The position numbers and the translations under genes are program-made. Source: Brachycybe producta (taxonomy: Eukaryota; Arthropoda; Diplopoda; Playtdesmida; Andrognathidae). Taken from it: a DNA stretch of 64,000 nucleotides. This document shows, piece by piece, positions 26,391 to 59,900 of the stretch. Within the stretch, counting starts at the first letter, position 1. Each line of letters begins with the position of its first letter. The DNA is taken from contig JAUPFP010000008.1 of NCBI GenBank assembly GCA_036925085.1, positions 7,130,777 to 7,194,776 on the forward strand, written 5' to 3'. The notes under the pieces are model-generated. The model was given only the letters and a program-made list of their open reading frames with translations. It was not told the DNA's origin and ran no database searches.

Positions 26391-28200
26391 TTGGATTCAA
26401 AATGCACGGTACTGTGGCACAGTCTGTCGTTTAAAATTCAATATCTTTGAAACTTTATATTGTTAGCAACATATCAAAATATAATAGTTATAAAAAAAAT
26501 TGATAAATAATTAACAAAGTTATTTAATTTTTTTAAAGAAAAGTTGAAAAAAATTGTTTTTTTTAGAAAAAATATCGCGATTTAAACTTTAGTTTTAAGA
26601 AAGCAATAACTTTGTTAAAGTTTCACACATTTGTTTAATATTTTGTAAAATTTATATTTCGACAGGTTCCTAACCATCAACTGAAATTTTCAATTTTTAG
26701 TATTTATAATTTTTGAGATATTTAATATTAAACGATTTGTTCTGAGACATATTGTAATTTATTTCTTAGTTATAATTTGGCTCGAGAGCCACACATTGCT
26801 GATGTTTGTTTGTGTTAATCTTTAGAAGTATTGTACTGTGTAGTATAAATACCCACAACACAGTTGATAGAAATTGTTATAATTGAGCATAATGGTGGGC
26901 CACATTTCTTTATATGATGATAATTTGTATGTTTCGTAATTCGTAGTTGTGTGTGAATTTAATTGATGGATGTATTAACTTATTTCGTTTTTTTTTACTT
27001 TTATTGTATTTTATAGTTACTTAAATGTCAGAAATATGGATGTCATCATCCTTTTCCTCATAACTCAATGGATGAAAATTATTTCACTCAAGACATAAAT
27101 TGAAATGAGACACAACTGAATGAGAAACGGAATCAGAAGAAAAGAAAAATTTAAGAAAAGAAAAACTTTCAAGTCATGTTTCAATGTGGACATCATCATC
27201 ATCATCATCATCATGTGAACAGAAAACTTTACTTTGTTTTCTTTCTCCTTTTTTTTTCTGGTGAGAAGAATTTATAACAAATTTCTTTTAAAAAACAAAA
27301 ACAATTTTTGGTTGAATTTCAGGTGGGTTTTTTTTTCAATTTTCAGACAGAAAAAATGAACTATTTCTTCACTTTTTGAACATTGTGCATAAATAACATG
27401 TAAACGCTTTTTAAATAGATAAAAATGGATTTATCTGATTTAAATAAAATTGTTTTAATGTTTTTTCGATTTTTATTTTAATTTTGAAATTCAATAATTA
27501 TATTTAAAATTAATTATGGGATATTATCATTAAGATAAAAATTTTAAATGTATATTATTTAGCAAAAAACATAATTAAATTAATTATCTGAAGTAATTAA
27601 TAGCTGCAATCATCAGATGCAATAGCAGAAAATGCAAAATCTAAACGATTTGGTTTAAGAAATTATTTGAAGAATTTCTTTTCTAACCAAAAACGTATTT
27701 TTTTAATTACCGGGTGTGTTAAATTATTCAACTTTATGCAAATTTTCAAAAATTATGAATTTTTATGCAAATTTTCAAATGCATTTTTATTTTTCAATTA
27801 AGGCAAATATGCAAGAGAAAAACTTGGCACTTCCTCTTTGTTTGCTCTGACTAGTTGGAAATAAATCTTAATTTCTTCTAAAAAAAAAGAAAGCTAGTTC
27901 CTTTCTGTGTTTCTGTTTTCGTAATTTTTTTTTTGCACCATGTCGTAAAATGGAAAAAAATTAGACCAGTTTTCTGACACACTAATAATAATTTTAATAA
28001 TGAATAAGAAATTTCAGTTCAAAATTGTTCTGTCACAATTTGTTCTGAGAACTTTTTTTTATAATCTGCTTCAACTTTTAAACAAAAGAAAAAAAGATCA
28101 TCGACCACTTCCTTGTGAAATTCAATTGTGAAAACCTTATTGTGTGACTTATTTAATATATATATATTTTTTAAAACATTTTTATTTAAAAAGGTTTTAG

Positions 28201-31200
28201 GTTTGAATATGTGTCCTGTACTGAGAAACAGGTTGATACCGAAGTGGTTCAAAGTGGAGTAGCCATTAATGACCCTGCCGAAGTGCCCCACGAACTCGAA
28301 GCGCCTCCTTCATCGTCCGAAGACAGAAAAGACATTTCAGTAGAACACAACGAACAACCCGTAATTTTATCCGATGAAAAGACAAAACTTACTAAACGTC
28401 TTCGTGACGAAGTTCAAGATGTTACTCCTGATTTGTTTGATTCCAACTATACAGTAGACATCAGTTCCACGACCGTTAATCTAGATGACGATCGGAGGTC
28501 GTCGAAAGGACCGCGAAGAAAATTGACGACAACGACGACGACGACGACGGAACTTGACAATGTCGAGTATGCCGCTGAAAGTGAAGTATCCAATTGGAAT
28601 CCGACCAAATTTCCTGCTGCAAAAAGCACGTCACAAATTTCAACATCATCCGAAGTTACGAATGTCGAAGGACACTTTGATGGACGTCGACATCAGCAGT
28701 CGTCGATGTCACCTACCACACAGCCGGCCACTTCAACAGAAGAGAGTTCTGTGGATTTCGAAGAACCTTCCGAAGTTCTGTACACTGTAACTGAAAAAAG
28801 TCTGGAGGTTATTTCGACGGTTGACGAGAGTTTGACCCGATCAGAAACACCTACTGAGAGTTCGTCATTATCGTTGGACGAAAGTTCTTCATTATCAGTA
28901 GACGAGAGTCCTTCGTCGTCGGTGGAGGAGAGTTCTTCATCATCAGTAGACGAGAGTCCTTCGTCGTCGGTGGCCGAGAGTCCTTCATCATCAGTAGACG
29001 AGAGTCCTTCGTCGTCGGTGGCCGAGAGTCCTTCGTCGTCGGTGGCCGAGAGTCCTTCGTCGTCGGTGGCCGAGAGTCCTTCGTCGTCGGTGGACGAGAG
29101 TTCTTCATCATCAGTAGACGAGAGTCCTTCGTCATCGGTGAATGATATTTCGGCTGACGATGCAGATACTGAGAAGTTGAAAAGTCCTCCGAACAATACG
29201 GCTTTTTTGGAGGTGTCCACAGAAAACCCGTTAGTTGGAAACACTTCTTTACTCATTGAACATCAGAAAGACAAATCAGGTGGCCGGTCACTACAAGAAC
29301 ATGAGCCTGTGACGAACAGTACTCGAGGCTTTAATGGAAGTGCCATTGGTCTGCTCTCATCCAGTACACTTCAAAATATATCCACAAATACCTTACAAAC
29401 AAACACAGGTGTCCAGTTTTTGGCTTCCTCTACGGTGTCATTTAATGAATCGACATCAAATGAGGACGGTGACCACCTGATTTCATCTTTTGAAATCTCT
29501 TCGAAACTGTTTACTGTAGAACAACTCATAACTAGTGCCATAGAGCTACAGAGCGTTGCTGTTTCTAGTCAAATTTCTTATACGCCATCATCACTTTCAA
29601 GTTCTTACTCAAGTGTCTTTGACTTCGATGTGGACCAAACATCATCGATGCAACCGCGGATGTCTTCGTCATTCGCGGTGTTGTTCACCTCTAATGGGAG
29701 CACTACTGTGCCTTCTGTGACCACTGATCAACAGTATGGCAACGAAGTGCAACACGAATCGTCCATAACAACAACCAAACATTCCATGGAAGAAGATTCC
29801 GCAGTGATTTTCGGTCAAATTGAAGTCGAACCTACAAAAACGGATGACAAACAAGAAGAATCTTTACCAGAAGAAGTAGAAAACAACGATGGAGGAACAG
29901 GAGTAGCAGCAGCAGATGAACAAAACTTTCCAGTGGATGAGGACGAAGTTCCTTCAAAAGAATCTAAACCTCGTGAAGATCCAAAACTCGAAGATGGATC
30001 TCCAAAAGAGGAATCCGTACCGAAGATCGTGGCAGGACCTGCCAACGAGACTGTTAAAGAGTTGCTCGGTGGTGTTTCTGTGGTGCTATCATCGACAGCT
30101 GCCACTGTTTACAACAGGACGTCAGTGACACTCTATTCTTCGAAGTTTTTTGATAGCACCGCTTCCGGCATACCGGTGTTAATGTCTAGTATGGGATTAA
30201 GTTCGTCATCTTCAGTGTATATGGAAAAAATGACGTCTCCTGCGTTTGATGTCTCAACATCATCTTACGTCAATACGTCTTCTGAGCTTCAACAACAGAT
30301 GGACATCTTAAACTCCACCTCAAGTGAACGGTCTACAGGATTTGTTCCCATTGTGGCCACGAAAGCTACGAGCTTAATGGATAGAAGGACAAAATACAAC
30401 AGGCTTCCGACGGAGCGGAATACGGATGGTATGAGTATATTCCTAGTGCAGAATGGTCATTTCATAACAAAATTTAAGTGTACATTTAGGTACATTAAGT
30501 GTACATTCAAGAAGAAAATCTGGATCTTGAATTTCAACTGGAGCCCTCTGAACAGGGTTCCAACATTCCATTCAAAATCTTGTAAATTGTAATGTCACAC
30601 AATTGAAAGGACCCACTCTGTACAAGTAATAAAACATATTTTTAAAAAAACAAAAATGGGGATTTTGTTTTTCAGATAAAGATGACCACGATGTCGTCAC
30701 CGATCTCAGTTACAACAACCCGGACATTGTCCTTCCTACAATCAGAGTGCCGGTTGCGTATTTGTCAATAACTCTCAAGTGTTCGTGGACTTATTTTTGT
30801 ACAAAAAGGCTAGAATTTCAGAAAGAATTTGCTCGTCAGTTAAAGAGTGCCGTGAAGATGAATATCGACCAGTCTCAGGTTGTGTTCTTCAATGTTCAAA
30901 TTTGCCAACACGCCGTTTTTCCTAGAAATGTGTCGGTGCCGATAGAGACGTTGAATGTTGCTACAGCAGTCATCACGGTGCCGTTGTACGTTTCAGACGA
31001 ATGGGGTGTCTACAGTAAATCTCTAACCGAACTTCTCGGAATACTCATCATACGTAATCGGCATCGAGGAACGGGATCGGTTAACGGTACCAATGTCACG
31101 GTACCGAATGTGGTTCTTGCTGTTCAGTTGCATCGTAAGGAAGAGAGCACGTCGAGTTACGCTCAAAACAACACAAACCTAGATGGAGATGTCGGAATCA

Positions 31201-33175
31201 TTGCAGTTATAACTATTTCTTGTATTGCTGCCATTTGCTTGGTTTTACTCTTTATTTTACTCGTTAGTTTCTTTCGTTGTTACCAAAATCTAAAAATTAA
31301 AATTAAGTTTTTAAACATAATTATTTCACGGTGCAGATGAAATTTGTTAATTATTTTGTGTTTTGTTTTGTAATTTTAAAGTATGTACTGAAGAGACGCA
31401 ATGGACTGAAAGAGAAGACTCGACGTTGCCGTCCCGTTGGCGATGCCTACAGTTTGGATTCCGTGTCCTCCATTCATTCGAGTTTCAGAAGACGCAAAAG
31501 TAGAGCATCGAAAAGATCGTATCTCAATCAAGGATTTGATGATCCTGTAAGCTAATTTTGCTTCGGAGAAAAAAAATAAATGTTTATGATCACTTTTGTT
31601 TGAGATGTGTTAGAAAATTTACATGAATTTAATTAAAAAAAAATTTAAAAAATCCACATATTTTTACACCAATTGGCAAAAAGGCTTCAGAAATAATAGA
31701 TTACTCATTTTTTTAGCATGCCACAACCAATAAGCTAAATTTTCCTGGACTTGCGAATGCTTCCATTGACGATGAAGCACTTGCCGAAGAATACAAGGTC
31801 TACCTGAAACACATCTAGTTGCCACAATTTCACGTATTATGTTCTCCTTGTTTTTTTTTCTAATAGCAAATTTCAATGCAAATGGCAAGATATGAAGAAT
31901 TGCCAGTTGGAGCGGAAGTGAAGAACCGATATGCCAACATTATACCTTGTAGAATTTTCGTTCAATTTTCTTTTGATCACATGACTTTGCTAGAAGTTGA
32001 ATTTCAATTATTTTTATTTATGCATTTGATAGTTCCAGAGACGAGGGTCGTTCTCATTTCAAAAACGGACGAAAGTGGTTCTGATTATATCAATGCAAAT
32101 TACGTTCGAGTAAGTTAAAATTATTTTTGAAAACTCGGATATTTTAATAATTTTATATGACGTGTGTCATGTAGGGATATCGTGGCGAACAGAAACGTTA
32201 CATAGCATGCCAAGCACCGCTTGCAAATACAATAATTGATTTCTGGCAAATGGTCTGGGAGAACCAGTGCAAAGTTATAGTCATGTTGACGGCCATTGAG
32301 GAAGATGGAGTGGTATACTAAATGGCAAATTATTTAAAAAGCCAAACCTAGACTCTCTATTTTTACAAAGATAGTCTTCTCGTTGTTGTTTTTAAGAATA
32401 AATGTGCTCCATACTTTTCTGAAACTGACACGTTGGATTGTCACCGTCTTTATGGCGATTATCAGGTGACGACGAAGAAAAAGGATGTGCGGGAATCGTA
32501 CACAGTGTCTGCGTTGCAGCTCAAAAACTTGGAGGTGTTAAATTATTTTTCATATTTTTTTTACGAGAATTTGATTTGATGGACTGTAATTGTAGAAAAA
32601 TTTGATGCGTGACGTGATCCATTTTTGGTATACGTCTTGGCCCCCTCAAAACGTTCCGATCGATCGTAATTCGATCACCGAACTTCTAGTCGAAACGAGA
32701 CCTTACACGAAGTCTAATTCTGGACCCATGGTTGTCCATTGCAGGTATCTTTTGTTTTTGTTCTTTTTGTGTGGTTAATTTGCTTTATTTATTTTTTTTT
32801 GTTTCGTTGTTGTTTAGTCCTGGAACGGGAAGAACCGGAACTGTGATTGCAATAGACATTTGTATGCACGAATTCGAATTCACTCGTACGGTGGACATTC
32901 CTCGTTGTGTGCACAGGATAAGACAGGACAGAGGTGGTTCTGTACAAACGTCGGAACAATACATTTTTATATACGAGGTATTCATCGAAGTCATAAAAGT
33001 ATTTTGTTTACTAATAATGAAACATTTGAACATTAATTTTTAGTTTTTTTTAACCATTTTGTTTTATTTTGAATTTAACTGAGAAAAATATATCACTTGT
33101 TTGTAGGTTCTTGGTGAATATGCATCAAAATTAATGAATCACTCAGGAAGGTCATCAGTAAGGTCTACAAGATGA
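28201..33175 (+). CDS. Receptor-type protein tyrosine phosphatase, mucin-like ectodomain (5' end missing)
   Basis: A single-pass membrane phosphatase. Visible exons: 28201-30428, 30676-31262, 31382-31546, 31717-31797, 31867-31948, 32033-32109, 32175-32312, 32397-32534, 32596-32744, 32818-32977, 33107-33175, 1290 residues from the first visible codon. The acceptor at 28199-28200 shows that signal-peptide exon(s) lie upstream; I could not find them. Residues 1-740 are Ser/Thr/Glu-rich with an 8-residue repeat array, followed by a globular juxtamembrane domain with N-glycosylation sites (possibly SEA-like), a transmembrane helix (about 917-940), an Arg-rich stretch and one PTP domain: [20 protein letters not shown] (usually QGPL), [18 protein letters not shown] (Cys 1214), QTSEQY. 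The general-acid loop reads WPP (1180-1182), not [11 protein letters not shown] and VIVMLT..EDGV recall IA-2/PTPRN, but the ectodomain does not, so no orthologue is named. Confidence 0.85.
28852..29142 (+). repeat. 24 bp coding minisatellite
   Basis: About 12 head-to-tail units encode the octapeptide (D/A/E)ES(P/S)SSSV. Central units are nearly identical at the DNA level (GAGAGTCCTTCGTCGTCGGTGG), while outer units drift. The array stays in frame, so copy-number change would alter only the stalk length of the receptor. Ser-dense repeats are expected to be O-glycosylated. Confidence 0.9.
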
Positions 33176-35439: not shown

Positions 35440-38400
35440 ATGGCGAGTCCTAGGAAATTTAGCGAAAAGATAGCACTTCACAACCAAAAACAGGCTGAAG
35501 AGACGGCCGCCTTTGAACAAATTATGAGGGAAGTGGGCTGTGCTACAAGGGTGAGTTTTTTTTCATATGTCATCTGTTGTCTTTCGCTTCGTTTTGGGGT
35601 TATATTAAGGGGGTAAAACGGAATGACCTTGCACTAGCGCCCATTCTATCATAGTCCTATGTATATCTGTCCCCCCTTACCCTTTCAAATAGAGAGCCGT
35701 TTGCTCGCTCTTTAGCTATATTTACAATTAAAACGCTCTTAGAACTCAAACGAAGCATTAGCATGTACTCGACTGACATAAGTACATCCTTCCATTTGAT
35801 ATTCTGTCATGTTAATCCTCAGAATTCACTGTCGTTAATTGGTTTTTACACCTTAAAACATGTTGCTTTCTCATTTCTATATTAACCAATCATTTTATAT
35901 TTCATAGGTATTTTAGACAGATACAGAGTCGAACATGACTCAATTTCAAGCCCTTTTAAGAGGAAAATAAGTAGTCGATGTGTAAATTACAATTATGTTT
36001 CACTGTGTGAATTGTTCACGTTTATTTGTTAGGGCAAACATTTTTGTTTTTTATTAGAAATTTGAGTGTTTCAGGAGGGAAAAGTGAAAAAAAAAATTGT
36101 CACATAACACACATGGTTGATAGTGTTTCCATTTTGTGGCTACAGGTGGCGCCCTATTCCAAGAATCAACTTGGATCTTTAGCCCTGAAAGATTAACGGA
36201 ATGAGAGGGTAGGGCATGAGCTGATCGCTTTCAGTTGAATTTTGAGGCATATTTAGTGGACCAATAAGCCATTGAGACATGTTTTAGGGCGAACGAATAT
36301 GACATTTTTTCATGTACAAGGTAGATGTGAATTACCATGTTAGTTCACCCTTATTATTGCGTGTTGTGGCTTCAAAAGTGTGTCATTGTGTCGCTGCCGT
36401 CACTTTTTCTGAAAGGAAGGGTTCAATAGGGTTAAAATGAAGGGGTGGTTGTGTGATGGTGGTGGTTTATAAGGTGGCCAAACATCACCTGTTTACTTTT
36501 CATGAATCTATGCAAATGAGTTAGGTTTAGTGTTAATAAATGAAGGAGGGCGCTGCCTTCTGATTGAAGAATGAGAAATGAATCTCTTCTGTGTACTTAG
36601 TCTTTCAAGGACATTTGAGCCTCCCCCCCCCTCTTCTCTTCATTTTCCGCCTTGTTTCTGTTTATTAATGGCGGACGTTCATCTGTTTACACGCAAACAA
36701 ATATATAGCCACTATAATAACATTTTAATTTATTCAATCTAGAATGCAGGCAAAACTATTCTCGCATTTTGTGTCTCTTGTTCTGTCTACAGTTGGTGGT
36801 TGTTTTTTAGCCCTCTTTCATGCTTATCACGTGGTCCACATTGGGCCCCCGCTTTTTAAATGGCTTTTTAAGTTCCGGGTTTCTCTATAGTTAAATACAT
36901 GTATTCGGTTCGTGTCAGTTTTGAATTTGGTTAATTTATCAGTTGATTGCTATAGAAAGTCTGTGGAGCCACTGTTTCAGTGTGACAGGGTTAATTAATA
37001 TACTTTCCTTCGTCGTAAGAAGAAGCTTGTGACGTCAGAGGGGTTGACGTAAAATTAAGTTTTTTTTTATAAAAACGGAGGGCATTAAACGTTTTAAACA
37101 GTCTAAAACAAAAGGGGGGTTTGTTATTAGTCTTATTGCCCTTTTTTAATCAGATAAAATGATGCAATTTCAAAATTTTTGTCAACCCCTATGACGTCAC
37201 AAGCTTCTTATGATGAGTCACGTATACTTGGGGCGTGTTAACAACTGTCATAAGAAACTACTAGTATATAAATTGCTATAGGAATCCAATGCTACGTCTA
37301 ACCATAGGTCATTATTTAGACTATTATTTATTAATATATCATTCCGCAATACTTTTAAATTACATTCATCGACATTTTCTAGGAAAATACAGTAGACAGC
37401 TCAGTTGTTAGTAGCTTAATCAGGTCAATGATAACTGAATAATTAAAGTTCAATTATCTTTTATTTTTAATGAAAGTATATTTGACTTATATTTGTTTTC
37501 TATTTCTACGCCATTACATTGTGAATTAAAATAATATTCATGGGGCGCACAGTTGTTGTCTTCTTCATAATTAGTTAATTATTTTATTTGTCATATTATG
37601 TCGAAATTTTTGTGTTCCTCCTTCATGTCGATCGAGGCTCTAAAACGTTTTGTGTTCTGTATATTAGACTCATTTCTTCATCCAATTGACCTCCGAACTC
37701 CATAAATGAACATGGCCACACATTTCTAAATTTAAAAATTGCTAACGGGCAACGTTCGAGGCTTATTGTACATTACTTTAAAAAAAACGGTGCTGTATTT
37801 AGGAACAATTTTATAAATAACCATCATCTCTACACAATGGCGATAATCAGTGTCGGCAACTTGGCCCTGTTGCATCGAATTACACATATATTTTGAATTG
37901 TATTCATTCCTCTTATCTGGAGACCTAAATAAAGCCCATGGACTGGACTGGGCTGGCAGTTTTATAAAAACAGGCTATGAACTTTGTAGGGCCTGTTGGA
38001 CTTTTTGGGCTTTGTGGGATGGGCTCAAAATGGGCCATTAAACTCACTAGATTTGTTTAATTCCATTGTTTAAAGAAGAATGGCCACATTACTAAATCCC
38101 AAATTTGAATTTAGAAACGAGGCAAACAACATAGGGACAATGCCACCCTGTTGTCATGCTCAAATTGTATGTCAATGGGCGCGGCCATCTTTAATAAAAT
38201 CTCAACATCTTTGAAGCAGGGGTGAATGGGGACCCCCCTCCCCAAACATACAATCTTTATATAAAATGTAAATGTTACCGCCAACATAAAAAAATGGTAA
38301 TTTTTCTCTGCTATTAAGCAATGTGGAACACTACCAATTTAGTACATCTGTAAAATGACTTAATATTTTATGCATTGTGCAATACGTCTAAAACTGGCCA

Positions 38401-41400
38401 ATGTGCAAAATGTCATTAAATCTAGCGGCGTAATAGCCGCCGTAATATGACGGTAAATGACTACACAGAAAACCGTTTTCATAGATGTAAATGGATGTGG
38501 TTTTCTCGAGAACAACGATAAGCACCACAGCTTTTGAGAAAACCACATCGATTTATATCTATGAAAACGTTTTTTGTGTCGTCATTTACCGTCATATTAG
38601 GGCTGCTATTTTGCGGTACCACCATCTTAGGAAACCCTAGCTTAAGGCGTTTTGTACTGTTGGCTTGTTGATATGGTCATTCTGCACAATATCTAAAATC
38701 ATAGTCAATGTGCAGATTTAATACCAAACTGGTTATTTTGCTTAATTACTATGCAATCTTCAAATTTACTGACTTTCAAGGGGTGTGCATTTGGTGATAA
38801 ATGCTAGATTACAAGATGGGTTTAGCAAAACGTCACCAAATAATCAAGTGAGATTAGGCATTTTTACGAATAGGTTCACGTTTTTTGTCCAAGCGTTGCT
38901 TACATTGCAATTCGTTAGCTAACTATTTGTGTTGTAGAATGTGGACCATATCATGTGTGTATGTTAAGACTGTATGTGACATGCTGTGGCCCGGGGGGGG
39001 TTCATTAATGCCACTGTTATCATTTCATGTATGTTAAATGTGTGTGTTCGTACGTATATGTGGTTCATTTTGCACAATCATATCATACATGAACAAGTGC
39101 TGTTTCCCATTGTTGTTAGGGTGAACCAGTGATACAGAAACATCATCTTCATATCAATCAGTGTTTGGTGTCTTCTTTTCGAGGTGGTTCTTTGCCGAAC
39201 GTCAATCAAATCGGCAACAACTCCATTGACTTGCAGGTAAGAAGGCTAAAAAAAAAGTCCTTCCTTCCTCTGTTAAGAACTGCCACAAGTGATCTACTTT
39301 GTTAAAAAGATGCTTCTTAGTAGAAATGCAACTTGCTAGGCAAATTTGCATCATTGGCTGGCTGGAGTGCGGGGGTGGTTGGAATTAGTTTTCATTCATT
39401 AATTAGTTCTCATCACATTTTGAATTATTTACTCCTTCATGAACTTCAATTGAAATTGATTCCTAATCATTTGCTGCAACAACAAAAAAGTGCAGTAGCA
39501 TAGAAACTAGAAGAGTTAAATGAATGACTAGAAAGTATATTTGTTGTTTAATATCTATATATTGACAATTTCACTTAACACCTTATTCGTTTTTTCACTT
39601 TAAGCTTGAACAAAAAGCTTCTCTTCTGGTGGTGTACGAAAACTTAAAATTTGGCCATTTTCAGATAATTCATAATTTGAGTAACATTTTAGCTTATCCG
39701 TATGTAAATGTTGTTCATAATGTTAAAGTTAAACCTTTCGTTAATTGCAATACATCTAATGCAATTTTTGAACAAATTTGGACGAATTATCTGTTTGATT
39801 AATTATATATTTGCGTGGGGGTTTCTTGGAGAACTTTTTTTGTGAATTTTAACAGTTTTAACTGTTATTGAAGTGGTGGCACTTTAAAAAACTTCAACGT
39901 ATATTGTGTTCTTAGTTATATTGGTGAACGAACACTTCAGACTTCTAGAATCCTTGGATTGAAGTACAACCGGGGGATCGTCTTTGTAACTGATCAGTGA
40001 TCACAGTCAGTCTGCCCTAAGTGTTTTTTTCCCCCTTTAGCTATTGTAATTACTTTGTTGCATGATGATAATCAAGATAAATACATGATGGTAGCACAAC
40101 TAAGAACACTTTATCCCTAGATGGGAATGTTTCCTGCCGGCGCAACTGAATAAGCGCCAAATTGAACAAACGCCAAACTGAATAACCGCCAAATTGAACA
40201 AACGCCAAACTGAATAACCGCCAAATTTTTGGCTTTTATTCAGTTTGGCGTTTCTTCCATTTGGCGTTTGTTCCATTTGGCGTTTATTCAGTTTGGCGGT
40301 TATTCAGGTTTTTTGTAAATTCTGATGGTCCAAATATTGTGAGCTTTTATAGACGTCAGACTGTGCAGATTTACAAACAGAACATCCTAACCTAACCAAT
40401 CCTAACCTAACCAATCCTAACCTAACCAATCCTAACCTAACCAATCCTAACCTAACCTAACCTAACCAATCCTAACCTAACCAATCCTAACCTAACCAAT
40501 CCTAACCTAACCAATCCTAACCTAACCAATCCTAACCTAACCAATCCTAACCTAACCAATCCTAACCGGTTATTCAGTTTGGCGTTTGTTCCATTTGGCG
40601 TTTATTCAGTTTGGCGTTAGTTCAGATTGGCGTTAGTTCAATTTTGCGCTTGATCAGCGCCACCTTCCTGCCATATTAGAGTAAGTTTATCGTGAACGAC
40701 GTTTTTTCTGATCAAATGGAGTTGAAGTACCTCTAAGTTTATCTCTTTATAATTACATTTTTGTAGTCCTTGGGTTTCTTTTGGAGGTCGCTTCTCCCTC
40801 TTCACGTGTGCTAATTCATTTTTGTGTTTTGACACCTTGTTTGGAACTTCTATTCTACTTATTATTCACGGTCCGTCCGTACATTTTGTCCCTGAACACT
40901 GTATTTGAACTCTCTCTCGTCTTTAGTACATTATTAGGTTCTTTATTAAAAAAAAAAAGAAGGAAATCATGATGTAGTGAAATTGGCGTAGAGACTCTGG
41001 TGGAATGTTTTTATTAAAGGGACACCTTAATAGAATAGGACCCAATTCAAGAAGGAAATTTCAAACTTGGAACTTTGAACTTTTAATAATAAAAACCCTC
41101 TAATCAGGATCCCAAAAGTAGAAGTCGATTTTGTTTATTGAGTTTTATTGACACCCTGCTCAGAGGGTTCAAATCGAAGTTCAGGTGCCAAGAGCACTCT
41201 TAAGGTGTAGATTGAATGATTGGTTCCCATTTCTGACTTACAGGTTACATTCTAATTTTAATTGCACTTCTCACTTGCCTCATGGAGGAGGGCATTTCAG
41301 AAAGATAAGAAGACAGTTAATTGTCATATCGTGCTCATAACTTTATAATAATAGTCATAAAAGCAAATTACAAAATACTACTATCATATGTGTATCATAT

Positions 41401-44400
41401 CTTTGTGATTGTCACTGACTATTGTGCAGCAAATGAGACTATTGTAAAATAATTATAAGCAGTGACATCCTAAAGTATAGGTTGTCTTATTTTTGTTTGT
41501 GGCAATTTTTGAGATTTAGCGAGGGTAAAATGTTTTTGTCAGTGAATGCATTGCAAGTAACACCTTTTTGGTAGGTGGTTTTTAAAAGTCTTAAGATTGT
41601 ACTAACAAGTTATTAACATTCAGACCTAAACATAAAGTGACCTAAAGACCAACAGAATAAGCTGTCTTGTAAATAGAACAAGTCATCTTAGGCGTTTTGA
41701 GAATGCTTCTTGAGAACTGTGATGATAGAATAAGTAAACTTAGGTAGGTAATATCTAGGGGTGTCATTACAGAAAGACAATAAGAATGTCATATAGCAGT
41801 AAATTATCATATCTAGCTCATAACCATAACCTTGTAACAATTACAAAAGAAGGTTATAAAATATCATGACGAATATGATATTATGCATAAGAAGTGACAT
41901 TTGAATTTGAAAAATTATTCTGCAAGCAGCAAAAAAAAGGCCTGTGGCAGCGGGACAAAAGTGAGAATGCAGCATACGAAATGCATTGTTAAAACCCAAA
42001 GATATAAACATTAGGACGTTTTTGTAATGAGGCCCCAGGTTATTTAGGTAGTGGAAAGAAACAAGAAATATTTTAATTATGTCTTAACAACCCTAATGAA
42101 TTTCTGATTGGTGAGGATTTGTTTCAGGAAAACTGTCGTGACCACGGGTTACAAACTCATTCGTTTGCGTTGCTCATGACACCCATATCGGTTTCTTTTT
42201 CGTTAACAGAGTGCTCTTACAAGTCTGGAAGACATGAAACAGGGTCGTGATGGTTTGGTTGATCGAGTGTATCGAGACAGCAGGCCACGGCACGTTGGAC
42301 CTCACAGACGACAGTTCGACAAACGAATATCCTTTTTTACTTTAAAATATTATCGTGTTTGTGTGACCACGGTTGTGGTTCCTTAACGGAGGTGTTGATC
42401 TTTCTCGTTCTTCACGTGGACTGTTCTCCGTATAGTTCTCCGTACCTTTCTCCTCCTCCAGACACCAGCTGGAGAAGGACGAACAGTGATTCGGCTCTAC
42501 ATCAAAGTGCGATGAATCCGGCAGATAACTATCACGGTTCCACGACACCTCCTGCAAATAGGAGAAGTGAGTCTCTCTTGTCTTTTAACGCTGTTTTGGG
42601 ATTTTTTTGATAATTTGCATGCCATCATCACTTTTGTCTCTTTTTTTGTTTCTCTTTTTCTCTCTCTTTCTCTCTTTTCTTTTCTTTTTTCCTTTTTATC
42701 CGTCTCTCTTTATGTACAATATAAACAAAACAAAAAACGACCAACGTGTTCAGTGTTGGCATTTCCTCTCCTAGCTCACGAGGACGGTCTCGTCGTCACC
42801 GATGGGATGCAGATGAAGGGGTACTGGGATCCAAAGAAGTTAGTTCCTCCTCCTCACTCTCGACCCAAATCTTGTGAAGTGCCGGGAATAAAGTGGGATT
42901 CACCGTTTTTTTAAATTTTAATTTTACAAACTTAAATTTTGTTTGTTTCTTTGTGTTTTTTTTTTTTGTGTAGCATTTATCCAATGGAACAAGATCCGAA
43001 TCTTGTTCATCTTTCCATTGCCAACAACACAGGTTCGTTACCTGATTTAACGAACCTTCAGTTCCAATCTCCGTTGGCCACTCCCATCGACACAGAGGAT
43101 CAGACGGGATCTCCTTACAGCAACGTACGTTTTGGTTACTTTTTTTAAAGTTTTTATTCTGTCTTTGTTATTTTTGGATCAAAATATGAACACATTTTAG
43201 CTCGAGCTTTTTCATCTTGTTGCTGGTTCTCTTCCCCCTTTTATTCTGTTTCTCTCCTACCTAACTTCCGTCCTGTTTTGCTTGAGCCAAAATATAACCA
43301 CTTCTTGTGATGCTACTTAATGCAGAGCCCCCAACAACAGCTTAGTCCTTCAACTTTGTCCCCAACGTCTTTCACTGCTGCCATGACGGTGTCGCGAGAC
43401 GGTTCCATTGTACAACCTTCTACTGTCAGTGGGGGATCGGGTCCCAATCATCATCATCATCAACAACAACAACAACCGCAACAACCCCCACCTCCTCTTT
43501 CCAGTTCGGGAGCTCCTCAAGCTCAACGGCGGCGATCCCATCACCCAATGCTGACTAATTTAATCATTGGTGGAAGTGCTTTGCAGCAGGCAAGGCTCTT
43601 TATTTATTGGCTCTTATTTTCTACTTGTCTTTAAAAGCGTTCTCTCTCTCTCACTCTCTCGTCTTGGTGTTTGGTGTCGTTTAATACCTTTCTCGTATTC
43701 TTAGCATTGACTACCGCTTGATTTTAGGTTTTAACAGCTTTGATTGTATACTTAAATAGCTAACTAACTGAACAAACGATCAATCTGCTTGTAAAAACGC
43801 CTGATTTGATGTAGTTATCATCTTTTAGTGCAAGTAGTCGTAAGTAGAAGTGCCAATGAATTACTGGGCGGTTTTTCTTTAGAGCTAAGCGTGTATTACG
43901 AGTCAGTTGACATTGCTCTCGTTCTTTCCAAATAAAGGGTCGCTAAAGAAGTAAATTTAGACCCAAATTCAAGAATCTTTTGAACTGGAACCCTTGGAGA
44001 AAAGGCAATACCACAGAGCAGAGCAACTCATTAATTTTTATTTTCGTACGTCGATATTTTTTTAACCCTGCTCGAAGTTGATATTGTATCTTAATAATCA
44101 AGTGTGAATGGAACTACTACTGGAAAGGGTGGAAGAAAACGCAATTGAAATGTTTGCACCGTCTGTAATTTTCAAAGAATTGTTTGGGACACTGTTCATT
44201 ATTGGATTTGATCGGATTAAGCCGTCAAATGCGTTTTGAGCGCCTTTTACAGTAATTACTGTTATTTGATTTTAACGGAAAGGACTTATGGTTATTAGTG
44301 AAATGCTTGTTTGGCTTTTTAACATTGTATTTTAAGGAAATATATAAGTTATGATACTGGAGGAGCTCGAGCTTTCAGGAGAGAGAGACGTAATTCATTG

Positions 44401-47285
44401 GCACTTTTATTCCGTTGTGGCGGCATGGTTGTTCGGGGACTGTTTTATCCAGCATCTACATTATGTCGTATTAGTTAGGATTGTTAGAGTAACTGGATTT
44501 AGTGTGCATTTGTAACAGTGATTTATTTTGTGTGTCATTAATGTAGATAATCATTAATCGCTATTACTAATTAGTAGTATTCTAGGTTTATGTTTTGTGT
44601 TATTTATATATACAGTATAGTAGTGATTCCTCATAGATTTTTGTGTTGCCTGCAATTTGTTCCAGAATTGCCTGCGGGTTCCCCCTTTGCACACCCGATT
44701 TTTACACACATGTAAGGTTGGTTGATAAATCGCGTTATTTTTTTCCATCATTTATTGTTTTTATTTTTTTACGATTTTATCTCTTCTTAATTCAATTTTT
44801 TTATTTTTTCATCTATAAATACGTTTTAAATTCTAAACACTTTCAAAATTAAATCTTTTTCTCCTCGTATCTTGTAATAATTATCTTTTTCAATCTTCTA
44901 AAAGTTTCTTCTGTAGCAGTTCTGCGTTTCATATTTATCACTATTAATTAACGAACCTTTTTACTTTAGGTTTTTAATGTTTATGTTTCTATATCTTATG
45001 CAAAGTCGAAGTTATTGGTTGAGGTATTTAAATAAGTCACTTTACTTTCGTTTTTTCGTTGGGTTTTGGGGCATTGTGATTTTTCGTAGTTTAAAGTGGT
45101 AAGTAAAATTGCCCGTACTGTTTTTTCGGGAGGAACAGTCAAAAATTAAAGTTTGGTAGAAACTAGAGCTTTTATGGGTGTGTTTCGTATTTCTAAATTT
45201 ATGATTGTTTGAAATTTTCATTTTCAAACTGCTATAAACAGTTTATTATTAAACATGGCAATATTTAAAATAAATTTAATCTGATCAGTGATGATCAAAT
45301 TATTTTATTTTAAAATTTGTTTGAATTTTTTTCTAAATGATTCGTTCCAAAAACGTTTGTCTTAAATTTAAACACCCGATAATTACTTTTTTGGCCATCT
45401 TAATTAAGTAGAACCCAACTAGTAATGTCGACTTCGCATTGGAGTATTTTACTTCTAGCGCATGAGTTTTAACCATTTCCTGTTCATTTAACTAGTATTT
45501 AATTCTCCATATTAGTTTGTCAGTTTGTTGTTGTGTTATGCACTTAAGTTTTGGCACTCTTGTGTACTGTTTGCACTTTTGCAAGTTCTTTTTATGGATA
45601 ATGTTGTGTTATTTTTTGGGATTTTCGAAAAATACTTAATTGTTTTATATGTAGGGTATGGCAACTGATTCGACGAGAATTCCAATTGATTCGTACACAC
45701 AACAACAACAACAACAACAACAGCAGCAACAACAGCAGCAGCAACAACATCGTCATCATCACCAGCAACAACAACAACAACAACATCAGGCATCACAGTA
45801 TCAGCAACATCACATGTATCAGCAACAATCTCAACAGCAGCAATTAGGTTTAACTTCCACATCAGATGGATCAACGGTTTGTTTGAAATTGTTTTAAATT
45901 TCTCGCAAGACACGAATTTGGAAAGTGAAGTTTTGTTTGTCGTACCTTTTCAGACTCACATGACTTACCGAAGTAGTAGTCCGGCCGATACGTCATACAG
46001 CGCCCCACAGTCTCCCGTCTCTCAGACGTTATCACCTGTAAGCTCACCTGGCCTTGGTCCTCCACCAAAAGATCCATTTACAGATCAAAGCGTGTATTAT
46101 TTGCAATCGAATGCACAAACGAATGCTTTACAGGAACATTTCCAGCATTTCAATATGGTACTTGTCTCCATATGCTTTATTTATTTTTAAATTTTAACGA
46201 GACAAACTTCAATGTAATTTTTTTATAGGTTGACACTCCGCCAGCATCATCGGTCAGCAATATCTTCCTTTCAGATATCAACAGTTTACAGTATTCCCAA
46301 GTATGTTTGTGGCCTAAATATACTCAATGGCTATGACTAAAATATGGCAAAAGAACTCTGTCCACCTTGCGTTTTGAAAACAACTTTGGTGCCTACGAAA
46401 ATGTTTTAAATTGAAAAAACTGCATATAACTATTTTTTGAAATTCATGAATAATAACAAATTCCAGAGTCATAATATTTTATTTAGCACATTGGGAGCCA
46501 ACGAAGACATTCAATATGTTACATAGTACTTAACGTGCATTCGACTTAGTGGAAACCTACGGAACAAATTAACCACATAAGTTGAGGACTTAACAGTATT
46601 TTAAGAAAACAATAATGGTGGGAAATAAACTTTATGTGATTGCCAACATGGTTGAAAGGTTCCGAGTCACTTTAAGTTGCTTCTTAAATGCAAAATATTC
46701 CGAGTTTGCTTCCGTTATTCTCTTCTATTGTATTTTGCCTCGATATAACCTATTTGATTGCTTCTCGACTGATTTTGGCCTTTGTAATTGTGGGCTTTTC
46801 AGGTTCAGAATGCCGGTTTAGTAGACAGCAGGGATATTCTGGATGGAGGTGGAGGATATTATAGTGTGCTTGACCAGTATTCTCACAATGGTCACTCTAC
46901 GGGACTTTCGTCTCCGGGAGGCAATCAAAACCATCACACGGCACCTCAGACGCCACAAACTCCGAGCAGCATACCGAATATTATTCTGACGGGTTACAAA
47001 TATATGAACATTTTATTTAAAAAAATTTAATTTATCTTAAATTGTTTTATTTTGTCAGATTTCTCATCTGGTGCTGAAGATCCAATGAGTAGGCAAGATT
47101 TTGCAAAGGATCTTGGGTCTGCTATGGTTGGAATAAGTGGTGTTTTTGACTCTGATCTGTTTGTAACGGACGATTTGAAAGCGGGATTGGATCCAATAGA
47201 TTTTGATGGACTTCAGATGTTGACTGATCCCGACATTGTTGCCGATCCGGCAACGGAAGATTCCTTCCGACTGGACAGACTGTAA
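35440..47285 (+). CDS. CRTC: CREB-regulated transcription coactivator
   Basis: CRTC (TORC) shuttles to the nucleus on dephosphorylation and boosts CREB at cAMP-response elements. Twelve exons: 35440-35550, 39120-39236, 42210-42326, 42416-42566, 42775-42892, 42974-43124, 43326-43589, 45655-45876, 45954-46157, 46229-46300, 46803-46992, 47059-47285; 647 residues. The CREB-binding domain opens with [32 protein letters not shown] holds the SIK/AMPK and 14-3-3 serine (Ser139). [22 protein letters not shown] and the acidic C-terminal activation domain ending [13 protein letters not shown] are all conserved. Exon 8 encodes poly-Gln (about residues 359-374) and further Gln/His runs. Intron 3 is a U12-type AT-AC intron and intron 7 has a GC donor. 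Introns 1 (3.6 kb), 2 (3.0 kb) and 7 (2.1 kb) hold mobile-element copies. Vertebrates have three paralogues, so no number is given. Confidence 0.96.
37014..37213. mobile_element. MITE with CRE-containing terminal repeats, copy A
   Basis: The left end GTAAGAAGAAGCTTGTGACG continuing TCAGAGGGGTTGAC (37015-37048) is inverted at the right end 37181-37213 (GTCAACCCCTATGACGTCAC then AAGCTTCTTATG). Each arm carries a perfect TGACGTCA. The interior is AT-rich and non-coding. It lies in CRTC intron 1. A second copy is at 62473-62690. Confidence 0.8.
38432..38610. mobile_element. MITE-like 79 bp inverted repeat
   Basis: Arms 38432-38510 and 38532-38610 are about 90 percent identical as reverse complements, around a 21-base centre. 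It lies in CRTC intron 1. DNA just downstream (near 38703, TAGTCAATGTGCAGATTT) matches 4137-4155, so the surrounding text is itself a dispersed repeat. Confidence 0.75.
40139..40664. mobile_element. hAT-like non-autonomous element with 8 bp target duplication
   Basis: Perfect 8-base direct repeats TTCCTGCC flank it (40131-40138 and 40665-40672). The imperfect terminal inverted repeats begin GGCGC and GGTGGCGC and are built from alternating 15-16-mers of the type GCCAAAYTGAAYAAMC, running right on the left side and inverted on the right. The centre is a CCTAACCTAACCAAT tandem array. Eight-base duplications are typical of the hAT superfamily. No transposase frame exists inside. Confidence 0.8.
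40386..40567 (+). repeat. Tandem array of CCTAACCTAACCAAT
   Basis: About 12 nearly perfect 15 bp units, with one 20 bp variant containing an extra CCTAA near 40446. It forms the core of the element at 40139-40664. It resembles telomeric CCTAA repeats but is interstitial and interrupted by CCAAT in every unit. Confidence 0.9.
41021..41210. mobile_element. MITE, GGGTTC-hairpin family
   Basis: Starts ACACCTTAATAG and ends CTCTTAAGGTGT (inverted). The inside contains AAACTTGGAACTTTGAAC, ACCCTGCTCAGAGGGTTC and CAGGTGCCAAG in the order seen at 59284-59401 and 62305-62440. Confidence 0.65.
42327..42415 (+). other. CRTC: U12-type AT-AC intron of CRTC
   Basis: The intron opens ATATCCTTTT and contains a perfect U12 branch-point consensus TTCCTTAAC at 42379-42387. 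It ends CTTCAC, 29-30 bases after the branch adenosine. Removal joins two phase-0 codons (CGA, GTG) and restores the family alignment QFDKR-VDCSPY leading into [10 protein letters not shown]. No GT-AG alternative keeps the frame. AT-AC introns of this class are spliced by the minor spliceosome (U11/U12, U4atac/U6atac). Confidence 0.92.
43590..45654 (+). other. CRTC: GC-AG intron of CRTC
   Basis: Exon 7 ends CAGCAG and the intron starts GCAAGG, a good GC-donor consensus. It ends TATGTAG before GGT ATG GCA. The join is phase 0 on both sides and no GT donor lies before the in-frame stop at about 43633. It contains a fragment of the GGGTTC-hairpin family near 43935-44100. Confidence 0.75.
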
Positions 47286-51533: not shown

Positions 51534-54500
51534 TTAACTTTGTCCGGACTGTAGCAACCTTTCCACGGCCGCATTCACATCTCCAAGTGTAGCGATCAGT
51601 GCTATGTATTAATAAGAAGGACTATGGTAGTGGGCATAAAATATCGTCTATGATTTTTTTTTTCTCAACAATACCTTGAAGATTTGCGTCTCGATTCAAG
51701 AAACCCATTGCAGTAAGCTGCTCCAATTGCATTCGATAACGTTCTTCAGGTGGTTGCTGAGGCTGCGACTAATGAAAAAAACATAAGTTCAAGTAGGATT
51801 GAAACTGCAACAAAATGCCACGAAAAAGGGAGAAAGATCAGTTACTTGCTGCTGCTGTCCCTGCTGCCCCAACGCCGACATCATCTGAGATATAAATTGG
51901 CTGAAGGCATCGGGGTTTCCTCCAGGACTACCTGTCACTGGTGCCGAGGTCGAACTATTTGTCGTAGGAGTAGTAGCGGCAACATCTGTCGTAGTTGGTA
52001 TTGATGCAGCAGTCGTTGTGCTGGTTGGCGATTGGACATTGGTGGGGGCCAGTGATCCAGTCTCGCCCACAGAACCGGGCAAATTGAATCCCATTCTAGA
52101 AAACACATTTGCAAATGAGCCGGTTTGTATAACACAAATGCAGAACTGAAAACCTATTGGAAAATCCAGGAGCGACACGTTGCAACTGTTCCATTCCCTG
52201 CTGGATTTGAGCAATTGCTGACAAGGCTTGTGGATTAGTTATAACATTTTGAACGTCTGGATTTTGCATCTATAACAAGAAGAGAGACAACAAGAATTAT
52301 AAAAAAATTATAAATCGATACCTACGAAAGCTACAAAATATACCTGTTGCATGAAAGTTGGAATCATGGATCTCATTTGCTCTTGAAGCTGTGGATGATT
52401 GGCAAACATCGGATTGTGGCGAATGGCCTACCAAAAAAAAAACATAACCAGAGGCTAAGAAAATCTTTTTCCTTTAAGCTGAAATCTGTTCATTTATTTT
52501 CAATTTGACAGGATGCAGAAATGAAAATGTTTTAATGCAGTGTTTGAAGGTGACTTTAAAGTACAAACGTCACTCGAACTCTTGCTGTTTTGTCTTTCAG
52601 AAGCAAAATTTAGATAAACTTGAAAGTGTTTTAGAAACTATAAGGGGTTATTATCCATGTTGCTATCTTTAAAAAAAAGCTTTTTTATGTCAGTTTGAAA
52701 ATGATATTTGATTTAATTTTTATCTGTAAAAACATTTTCAATTTCTCAATTGCTTTTATGCAACTGCTGAGAATAACCAACCCACAATGACAAAATGAGC
52801 TGTTTACAAAAATGTTAATATAATTTCAAGATTTAATTCAGAGTAGATGAAAACATTAAAAATACGAAAACAATCGAAATTTTACAGTAAAAACAGTGAA
52901 AATTATAAAAAAAATGACTTCAAACTGTCATAAAAAAGATAATTTTTAAAGATAAAATTGATCTTAAAAATTTTTTTTTAGTATTTTCTATCAAATAAAT
53001 CTTGAAATTATGTCAATAGTTTCCATCCGTTCTCATCGTTTTTCTGCATCTTGCAGTAAAATGGATATGAGTGAGAAACGCACATCAGCCAACATATTCG
53101 GATTGGACGCCATCGTCTGAAGCATATTCTGCATGTAAGGTGCACTCATCATGTTCTGTATAAGTTGTGGGTTATCAGCCATCTGCTGCATTAGGGATTG
53201 CATTCCCGGTGTTTGAAACATTCCTCCACCTAATCCAGGAGCCGTTGTAGTCGTGTTGGTTGTTGTACCGGTCGACGAATCGGTCGTCGACTGTGGACCC
53301 CATGGATTCGGAAGAGGCTCACGGTTCTCGACGCCTCGCTGCAGTCCAGCATTTCCTTGAAACAGTATCTTAACCGTTAACTTTTAATGCTCTACTCATC
53401 ATCACAATCCTTTATAATGTTTAAAAAACCATTTTCAGAGTTGACCAGAGCAGAGAACGGATTTCCACCGAGTTGTTCCTGTGCAGCATTCATCATCGGT
53501 TCCTGGATCTCCGTGTACATTCGTCTTAGTGCGTTATATCCTCCTGGCAAACTCTACAAGATGAAATTTAAAAGATTAATCGTCATTCACATTTTTTCTT
53601 AAAAGTTTCTGATTGTATAATTAAAACCTCCAAGTTGCTGATCGCTCTATCGTGAGCTCTCATCAATTCTTGCATCATGGTCGGATTACGAGCAACGGTC
53701 AATGTCTCTCTCAACAACTCGGGATTGTTTAACATGTGAGTTATCTCTGGGTTTCTCTGTTAATATTTGTTTTTAGCGATATAATAAAGGCTTCAACGAG
53801 AATCGAGAGAATTTCTGTCTCTCATCCTCACCTCCATCAACTGCTGCATCTGCGGATTTCCCATGATGAGTTGCCTCAAATGTTCAGGATTATTCATCAG
53901 CATTTGAACCATCGGATTATCCATCAGTTGTCTCAACAAATCAGGATTGCTAACGATCTTTGAAACAAGACAAAAACAATGAAAATCGATTTTTTTATAC
54001 TGAGAAAAGATACTTTAGTTAGCGTTTTTACTTCTCTTTGCATTCTCTGTTGCAATTCCATAAAGTTCGTCGACCCCATTCCTAAGTTTCCAAGTCCAGC
54101 TAGACCACCGATTCCACCAAGACCGAAAGGAGTCGCTCCGATGTTCGCCGGTTGAGAAGGCGTTGTTTCGGGCTTCAAAGAGAACAAACATCGTTTTACC
54201 CTTCGAGAATTCGTAACGAGTCTTGAGAAGTCGTTATATTTACCGGTCTCGGTGTGTCTTGAGCTCTGTTCGCCGATTTAACGACGAGGTGTACAGTGAG
54301 ACCATCCTTGATACCTAAAACAAAACAAATCTACATTTTAACAACACTTGATGCGGATTCTTCTTTATCCACGTCCGTATTTGATCACCATGTCCAGCCA
54401 ATGTTTCGTGGTCCTTGAGGATTTTACCAGCAAAAATCAAACATAATTGTTCAACTGGTGATCCAAACTTCTTGGCAATTTCCTCCTTAAACTTTGATTT

Positions 54501-54873
54501 TAAAAAAACGAACAATTTTTTGTAGTATTTATTAAAAATATGTTTTGCTCATTTAATTTTAACATTCTGACGCCTTAAAAACAAGGAACTGAATTAAAAC
54601 AATACTTTCAACTTGATTTGGGACCGTTTTACTAGTAATTGAGGTCAGTTACATGTTGGTAAATGGTTTGACTCAGCAAAATTGACCAACTTTAAGCCTC
54701 TTTTTTCAGATTGTTGTTTTTTTTTTTCATCTCTTCTTTAAGTGACGTTATTAATGTTTATTTTCAATTACCTCTTTTACGGTAGCATCTAACTGCGTCT
54801 CCACTGTTTGTTTTTCTTTTGGAGTTTTTACGTTAATTGTGATTTTCTTCGAAGAATCGTTGCTTTCCGCCAT
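51534..54873 (-). CDS. UBQLN: Ubiquilin (UBL-UBA proteasome shuttle)
   Basis: Ubiquilin brings ubiquitinated and misfolded membrane proteins to the proteasome: its UBL binds the proteasome and its UBA binds ubiquitin. Thirteen exons give 559 residues (human UBQLN1 589): 54772-54873, 54389-54491, 54244-54314, 54032-54172, 53832-53957, 53628-53756, 53430-53553, 53084-53355, 52344-52427, 52154-52269, 51846-52095, 51675-51768, 51534-51601. Order: UBL (about 11-80, with [10 protein letters not shown] and [10 protein letters not shown]), Gly-rich linker [19 protein letters not shown]1-type NP repeats (about 130-225), the [19 protein letters not shown] segment, the LPNPWGPQ motif, a second STI1 block (about 300-420), a Thr/Ser/Gln linker, and UBA (about 515-556, MGF at 527-529). 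It lacks the long PXX repeats of UBQLN2. Intron 8 (52428-53083) is far longer than the others and carries a dispersed repeat. Confidence 0.95.
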
Positions 54874-56993: not shown

Positions 56994-59900
56994 TTATTTT
57001 CCGTGTTTTCCACGTAAAAATAACGAGAATCGTCTTCCACCTTCGCTCGTTTTTAATAGCGGTTCTTCCTCCTGTTCCGTCTCTTCTATTTTTTCGTCTT
57101 TAACTTCCGAAGGTGAGTTGCCTCCGGTCGATTTCCTTCTGACCAATTTTAGTGGTGACGGGATCTTTAAGTGGTGCTTCTGTAGACCGAAAAACGGCAA
57201 TGAGATTTTTGTACTTGAGTTCTGTACTGTGTCCGTTTTTCTGTGCCGCAGTTCAGTTTCGGACGTTGCGGTGTCGATTTGTTGTGTATCGGTAAATAAG
57301 TTTGATGCGAAGTTATCGTTCGGACCGATGACTTCGAAGGACGGCGCTTGTGTCGTTTCTTTTAGGGTTTTTGTATTCTGGTGATTGACGTCAATTTCGG
57401 AACTTGAACTGTCCTTTTGTTCTTCAAACACTGGTTCGGAATCTTGGCTTACATCATCCGGAAACGATTCTCCGTCTGTTCCATCTCTGGAATCTGGTTC
57501 GGTAACGTGGAGATCTATGTCGGCTGGTATGTTTCTACCTTCTGCAAATTTTCTGGACCTTTCATGGTCACTGAATGGATCTAACTCCTAAATCAATTCA
57601 ATAATTAAGTTTTGAAAAAATACACTCTTCTGGGTGATACAAGGTAAAGAATAATGTTGCTCACTCTTAAAGCCTCTCTTCTTTTATATTCCACTTTCGC
57701 CATCTCGATTGCGACCCATGCCGGAACGTCTGGTATCGCATGAGAAAGTCCGTATTTGATTGCTAGCATCAGGTGCTGTCAATGAGAAGTGTTACTTGTT
57801 ATATGTCAAGACAATATGAATAACTTGGTTTGACTGTTTGATGCGGTGTCAAAAAATAAAACAATGGAACCTTTTTTCAAAGCAACTTATGAACACATTT
57901 TGTGAGATTAACATGAAAATATTAAGTGATTGAGCTACCCTTCTAGTTTCTAAAACACTTTCAGATTTCTCTTAATTTTGCTCGTGGGCGCATCATTTCC
58001 ACTTTAAACCCACCACATCCAGTTTATCCTTGTTTTTGATGTTTTAACTCAGTAAACCCTGATTAAACAAGTAAAACCTGGCCCTAAACACGTAAAACCC
58101 GGGTTTTTGCCTCTTATTTGATTTTGTGTATTTTTGCTTCAATAATCGTTCTTGTCATTCAAACGTTAACAACTTCCATAAAGCCACGCTTAACTTCAGT
58201 TTATATTTTGACTTTTGAAATTCTAATTTGTTAATGCATGCAAATTATTTTTAAACTTAATATGATTATCTTTGTGAGTTCGATTGCTATTGAAATTGAA
58301 ACCTCCAAAGCAATGATGAGAATGATTGTTCCGGTGGTTGACATTTCTGGAAAGATTCTTTGTACTTGTCCGGACATCCCGATGAGAGCACAATTGACCG
58401 TGATAGCAATTACTCCCATGACCTCCATCATTGTCTGCCATGCTCCGATGTTAGCAACTCGAACTCCAAATGGTCGCTGTAAACTGCAACACAGTTTGAA
58501 TGCGTCGCTCCTGATTTCAATCAAATTGTTTAGAAGAGCGCAAGCTGCTGCCATCGGAAATGCGGACGAAAACAGCATCACGTAACCAAATTGGATGAAC
58601 ATTTCCAGGTAATCTTCGAAAGTGCCTTCGTACTGAAATAGAACGACGTCAGATAATGAGTTTTTGTTAACCTCATCCATACAGTTCCAATTAAGTGTTC
58701 TCACTGGAAACATTCCGCTCTCGAGTTCTGCTTGCGATACGTTAATTTTGTCCGAGTCTGACGAACGCTTTTCGGATTTCTTGTTTGTGTTATCAAAGTT
58801 CGGTGGACGTCCAGCGTCCACCGGTGACGAAACAGGTGTTTCTAATACTTGTAGATTTATTAGAAGAAGTTTGAGGTGTCCAGCAATAAAAGGCACAAAG
58901 GACTCCTTAATGTTTCCCACCACTTGTCTCGTGATGAGAAGAGTGGCCAAAAGCTGCGAGAAAGAAAAAAATCCTTATAATCAATCATTACGTAAATATT
59001 TGCTTTTCTAAGTTGGATCTACACGAACGTATCGTAACTTTTCCATATCTTGAAGGTAAAAGGCGATGTAAAATAGGGATACAAAAGCACTAACAAACTG
59101 GAACTGGAAATTTTTTTAATTTCAAAACGAAAATTTTTAATGTGGGGAAAATAATATAATGTTAAAAATACGAACCACTCCCATTTTAATTGTTAGGTGG
59201 TTTTCGTAGGCTTCTTCCAGTCGATAGTTTTCTATAATCGAATCAAATTTTAGGAGTGAAATTGAAATAAACGTTCAATATGGAAACTTGGCACTTTTGA
59301 ACCCTCTGAACAGGGTTACAACATAGAGAAAAAAAACTGGTCAAGATTACAGAATTAAACCATGTTATGAGGATTCAAATTGAATTTCAAGTGCCAAGTT
59401 TTAGGCCTGGAAATTACAACAGTTCGAAACGGTCGTCATAATTATATCTTGCCCATATTATTCAGATGACTGGCAATCCAGTGGTAAGTTTCGTCCATCG
59501 CACAAATGGCAAGTGCCATTAGTATCTTTGGCATATACATTAACCATGATGGGTAATCCAGTTTCTCCATTCTTCTGATCCACCACAACTTGTTTTTTTT
59601 TAATAAAATATGCAAACCAAAGAGGGAAACATGATGTAAAGAAAATAAATGAAACATCTTTCGAAAGAATTTAAAGATTTGCACTTATTTTTATTACACT
59701 ATCTTTGAAATTGAACTTTTTTTTGCAAGATCTATTGTTCAATCATTTAAAGCATAAAAATAATATGTATGAATGTTTGTCTACTCTTCTAGTTTGAACT
59801 TTAAAGTAAATCTTGAAATCCTTTCATAAGTTGCTTCAAATAGATTTTCTCTTTTTTTTTCTGCACCATGAAAAATAAAGCGAGCGAGGAATCACCTCTA

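Follow-up and report, generated by a model that had tools for sequence, protein, structure and literature searches.

A predicted U12-type AT-AC intron in the CRTC gene of Brachycybe producta

The window analyzed here, a 64 kb stretch of the Brachycybe producta genome, carries a CRTC gene whose third intron appears to begin with AT and end with AC, and the locus raises the question of whether this is a genuine U12-type intron or a coincidental arrangement of short motifs. Judging from sequence, intron 3 of CRTC is very probably an ordinary and functional AT-AC intron of the U12-dependent class, one that would be removed by the minor spliceosome and is a likely counterpart of the minor introns reported in human CRTC genes. 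By every sequence signal tested intron 3 is a real U12-type AT-AC intron, with its spacing constituting the unusual part. Support for this reading comes from a donor, a branch site and an AC that match exactly at an exon junction, coupled with a 647-residue CRTC frame upon removal of the intron and a stop upon its retention. Additionally, the genome harbors four minor-spliceosome snRNA genes that score above the Rfam cut-offs, with none in 14 control genomes, as well as similar AT-AC introns in ZDHHC17-, PPME1- and IPO11-like genes, and CRTC is described as a human family of three minor-intron genes (PMC6865273). Counting against this reading are the 29-30 nt spacing from branch site to acceptor, a pyrimidine-rich stretch and the noise-like appearance of four of the eight loose pattern matches in the genome.

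In the mechanism that we propose, U11 would pair with ATATCCTTT at the donor, U12 would pair with TTCCTTAAC leaving one A bulged, and the first AC past the branch site (42415) would be used as the acceptor. The intron would most likely have been inherited from an ancestral CRTC gene shared with the human CRTC family. Its slow removal could limit the amount of CRTC mRNA, as has been proposed for other minor-intron genes.

The CRTC gene and the signals of its third intron

The gene model (Table 1) was built from splice sites and reading frames read by eye. Once the introns are removed the 12 exons join into an open frame of 647 residues, and the glutamine-rich product scores 76.8 bits against TORC_N, 90.4 bits against TORC_M and 76.8 bits against TORC_C. 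All three scores exceed the Pfam cut-offs, which places the product in the CRTC/TORC family and confirms the host gene named in the initial annotation; in the PDB, CRTC2 chains likewise match the N-terminus of the product. TORC_N extends over residues 4-63 and TORC_M begins at residue 136, with the intron 3 junction falling between them at residues 115/116. Since the Pfam matches flank this junction and none spans it, they prove the gene but not the exact splice. The 11 introns comprise nine of the GT-AG class, one GC-AG (intron 7) and one AT-AC (intron 3), and five of the 11 are 66-89 nt long. Intron 7 (43590-45654) is a GC-AG intron by virtue of a GC donor (CAG/GCAAGG) and an AG acceptor. 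As expected for an animal gene, no relative of exon 4 was confirmed among 40 pattern matches in viral contigs or among 460 in prokaryote contigs.

Table 1. Coordinates of the CRTC gene, the elements of its third intron and related candidate introns
Feature	Coordinates	Strand	Remarks
CRTC gene model	35440..47285	+	12 exons, 647 aa; TORC_N, TORC_M, TORC_C; exon bounds predicted by reading
CRTC exon 3	42210..42326	+	Open frame that continues through the other 11 exons; preceded by AG acceptor TTAACAG; ends in phase 0
Predicted U12-type AT-AC intron 3 of CRTC	42327..42415	+	Length 89 nt; follows codon 115 in phase 0
5' splice site ATATCCTTT	42327..42335	+	UCCUUU complementary (one G-U) to AAAGGG of the genome's U11
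Branch-point sequence TTCCTTAAC	42379..42387	+	TTCCTTRAY match 9/9; either A (42385 or 42386) may be the branch point
TAA in branch site	42384..42386	+	First in-frame stop upon intron retention
Alternative in-frame AG acceptor, unlikely	42390..42391	+	If used, VLIFLVLH would be added; lies 5 nt 3' of the second branch A
AC acceptor	42414..42415	+	First AC 3' of the branch site
CRTC exon 4	42416..42566	+	Bears the putative SIK/14-3-3-type site Ser139
Candidate AT-AC U12 introns L007, L008, L010			ZDHHC17-, PPME1- and IPO11-like genes

The initial annotation had described a donor, a perfect branch point and an AC acceptor occurring together in an 89 bp intron, and upon re-reading both the letters and the coordinates proved exact, with ATATCCTTTT beginning at 42327. 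The donor ATATCCTTT at this position fits the ATATCCTT pattern of AT-AC introns, TTCCTTAAC provides the TTCCTTRAY branch sequence near the 3' end, and the AC acceptor restores the reading frame and, as judged against human CRTC sequences, would restore the family alignment as well. The distance from the branch A to the final base of the intron is 29 bases for the second A and 30 for the first. Introns of the U12-type AT-AC class typically have no distinct polypyrimidine tract. The stretch before the AC is pyrimidine-rich, seemingly unlike this class description, with pyrimidines making up 66% of the bases after the branch A in the CRTC intron as compared to 50%, 67% and 78% in three other AT-AC introns of this genome, two of which are as pyrimidine-rich. 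Folding of the 89-nt intron was no better than that of shuffled sequences (z 0.21), and RNA structure that would shorten the 29-nt spacing was unsupported in the four stretches that were folded (z 0.21, -0.12, 0.61 and -0.76).

Each motif taken singly occurs at approximately chance level, as RTATCCTTT was found twice in the 64 kb window versus 1.80 expected and TTCCTTRAY was found twice versus 4.66 expected. The pair of motifs on one strand, 20-600 bases apart, occurs once in the window and arises in 10 of 200 Markov-1 simulations, which makes the pair by itself no more than mildly unusual. A strict form of the pair, ATATCCTTT N25-55 TTCCTTAAC, has two matches in the 295,300,729 bases of the genome (one in the reversed control), and one of these two is the CRTC intron, where the pair sits at a codon boundary and is followed by an AC that restores the frame. 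Given this genome-wide rarity in conjunction with the codon-boundary position, the AC and the restored frame, a chance origin of the combination at the CRTC junction is very unlikely.

Minor-spliceosome snRNAs and other AT-AC introns in the genome

The initial annotation called for a search for the minor-spliceosome snRNAs, and a profile search of the same genome (442 contigs) recovered all four. The matches to U12 (119.8 bits), U11 (79.4 bits), U4atac (84.8 bits) and U6atac (116 bits) are each above the Rfam cut-off and each span the whole Rfam model, with a second U6atac match (20.3 bits) falling below the cut-off. The host thus encodes the U11, U12, U4atac and U6atac snRNAs that are expected alongside an intron of this class. 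Among the 14 control genomes none had a match at cut-off, and sub-cut-off matches were present in none for U12, one for U11, one for U4atac and eight for U6atac. Within the 64 kb window itself all Rfam families, snRNAs included, stayed below their cut-offs. As read from the sequences, U12 carries GUAAGGAA, which is complementary to the branch site with one A bulged, and the 5' start of U11, AUAAAGGG, shows complementarity to the donor's UCCUUU that includes one G-U pair.

A looser pattern, ATATCCTT N25-55 TTCCTTRAY, matched eight times genome-wide and five times in the reversed control. Half of the eight lie, by eye, between coding exons, and these are located in CRTC and in the ZDHHC17-, PPME1- and IPO11-like genes. 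The remaining matches (L009, L011, L012 and L013) have no coding exons that could be recognized by eye; they look like noise and were not counted as introns. Acceptors of the three comparison introns were inferred from the reading frame. For the first of these genes a DHHC domain was confirmed in a later exon, and we take the gene to be ZDHHC17; its spliced peptide had no match in the PDB. The PPME1-like peptide matches PME-1 in the PDB with gaps near the junction, so that the acceptor there is placed solely by frame, and the IPO11-like peptide matches yeast KAP120, presumably the yeast counterpart of IPO11, without gaps over 63 residues. A pattern for short GT-type U12 introns, with spacing as for AT-AC, gave no match in the genome and two in the reversed control.

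Counted from the second branch A, the intron ends after 12 nt in the IPO11-like gene, 18 nt in both the PPME1-like and ZDHHC17-like genes and 29 nt in CRTC, making the CRTC intron the spacing outlier among the four and agreeing with the earlier remark that its branch-to-acceptor distance is long. U12-type AT-AC introns in general share with this intron the ATATCCTT donor, the TCCTTAAC branch site, the AC end and the dedicated snRNAs (PMC2831892, PMC3584512). However, the CRTC intron differs from them in its spacing of 29-30 nt, as the optimum is reported to be 11-13 nt (PMC3584512), and perhaps in its pyrimidine-rich stretch before the AC. The spacing of 18 nt in two other introns of this genome is likewise above this optimum. 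The CRTC intron may constitute a natural long-spacing AT-AC substrate for studying acceptor choice by the minor spliceosome.

Acceptor choice and the consequences of retention

Candidate splices of the GT-AG, GC-AG, AT-AG and AT-AC types were enumerated, using donors in 42268-42399 and acceptors up to 42489. There are 52 pairs that leave the frame open, including 13 GT-AG pairs, so frame alone cannot single out 42415. The initial annotation had claimed that only the AT-AC splice keeps both the frame and the family alignment; the part concerning frame is overstated, and as to alignment 42415 scores best against human CRTC sequences by modest margins. Donor 42327 alone gives eight open pairs that include AC 42415, AG 42391 and AC 42421, with the AT-AC splice to 42421 dropping VD from the product. 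The alignment across the junction uses the N-terminal sequences of human CRTC1 and CRTC2, and acceptors 42415, 42391 and 42421 give scores of 507, 498 and 499 against CRTC1 and 491, 484 and 471 against CRTC2, which are modest differences. Together the spacing and these human sequences favor 42415 as the predicted acceptor.

The same U12 intron could instead end at a different acceptor, with AT-AG at 42391 or AT-AC at 42421 used alone or alternating with 42415. The frame does stay open with either site and the spacing to 42415 is unusually long. However, just 5 nt separate AG 42391 from the branch A, the literature describes AT-AG combinations as disfavored (PMC3584512), and the PPME1-like intron holds its frame only if an AC located 4 nt beyond its branch A is skipped. 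With the 42415 product also aligning best to both human proteins, albeit by modest margins, use of another acceptor is highly improbable. Even harder to credit is that the stretch is removed as a U2-type GT-AG intron using nearby sites with the AT-AC motifs being coincidental. This would draw on the 13 open GT-AG pairs among the 52, such as 42355-42461 which has a pyrimidine tract before its AG, but all 13 cut into either a 10-residue or a 16-residue peptide stretch, the latter largely common to the human CRTCs. The GT-AG donors are moreover poor by eye, and the motif pair occurs at such spacing only twice in 295 Mb.

Ser139, which lies 23 codons beyond the intron, belongs to RRTNSDS, and Ser198 belongs to RPKSCE. 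Based on alignment to human sequence we read these as corresponding to S171 and S275 of CRTC2, respectively, and Ser139 of exon 4 as the SIK/14-3-3 site, which on this assignment upholds the earlier statement that the intron lies just before that site. If the intron were retained, translation would end at the TAA after 134 residues, giving a product that would keep the N-terminal domain but lose Ser139, Ser198 and the C-terminal domain. In CRTC proteins the N-terminal domain is the CREB-binding domain. Two SIK/14-3-3 sites, S171 and S275 of CRTC2, are reported as conserved across all CRTCs (PMC6317279). The consensus branch site TTCCTTAAC itself supplies the TAA, and the same holds for any U12 intron that has this branch site in such a frame.

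These features permit the view that the intron acts as a regulated switch, in which retention would yield a CREB-binding N-terminal fragment or a decayed mRNA and the level of the minor spliceosome would tune cAMP output. We regard this as unlikely. In its favor the TAA is in frame, the long spacing may weaken splicing, the level of U6atac switches other minor-intron genes (PMC3728624), and shorter minor introns are more often retained in mouse and human (PMC6717393). Against it, the intron folds no better than its shuffles, chance alone would be expected to place a stop in a retained intron, and among mouse minor introns 467 were without retention as compared to 150 retained in all replicates and 105 in some (PMC6717393). 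Switching controlled by U6atac has been proposed for minor introns generally and the main text of PMC3728624 does not name CRTC, so the gating idea is a published model applied to this gene and not evidence for it. A more elaborate version, in which the long spacing makes the intron deliberately slow, the retained fragment opposes full-length CRTC and the minor-spliceosome level sets cAMP responsiveness, is quite improbable.

Relation to known minor introns and other features of the window

The three human CRTC genes with minor introns are taken here to be CRTC1-3. Minor introns are already reported in the human CRTC family (PMC6865273), so that an ordinary U12-dependent intron in B. producta CRTC adds nothing new to the family and is mostly expected. 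That study places CRTC among families rich in minor introns that cannot be traced back to the last common ancestor of eukaryotes and counts the CRTC family as one candidate minor-intron gain after that ancestor, with a dating method that applies to genes and not to introns. The B. producta intron shares with the human ones the gene family and the minor class, the two points on which they were compared, and is probably their ortholog. If it lies at the same codon as in human, the intron would predate the vertebrate CRTC duplications.

In Drosophila the AT-AC subtype, to which the B. producta CRTC intron also belongs, is common among U12 introns, but the 2010 list of 19 fly U12 introns includes none in Crtc (PMC2831892). 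If ancestral, the intron was thus likely lost or converted in flies. The method of PMC7367187 yields additional putative U12 introns in the fly, so the list of 19 may be incomplete. CRTC is unnamed in the main text of PMC6717393, PMC3728624, PMC10639083, PMC2831892, PMC13216214, PMC2952598 and PMC8034651. A text search of the literature found nothing joining CRTC2 with a minor intron or CRTC1 with a U12-type intron, a broader search gave no minor-intron term among the matches listed, and CRTC peptide strings had no match in literature text.

Several other features are present in the window. Positions 40146-40640 hold, by eye, an array of CCTAACCTAACCAAT units bounded on its two sides by a GCCAAACTGAATAACCGCC-type repeat in opposite orientations, with sub-threshold matches to miRNA models that probably reflect the palindrome. 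A long palindrome at 38470-38590, possibly a small inverted-repeat element by eye, also has a sub-threshold miRNA-model match. The region 28190-33043 contains an 800-residue serine-rich open frame with tandem 12-residue units and, after it, a protein-tyrosine phosphatase exon (Y_phosphatase) at 32690-33043 that perhaps belongs to the same gene. On the minus strand, open frames in 12106-17801 contain a YTH start, an OB_NTP_bind fold and ankyrin repeats, and together resemble YTHDC2. Lastly, neighboring exons at 9554-10090, 54315-54548 and 58231-58974 match NDUS4, the ubiquitin family and Anoctamin.
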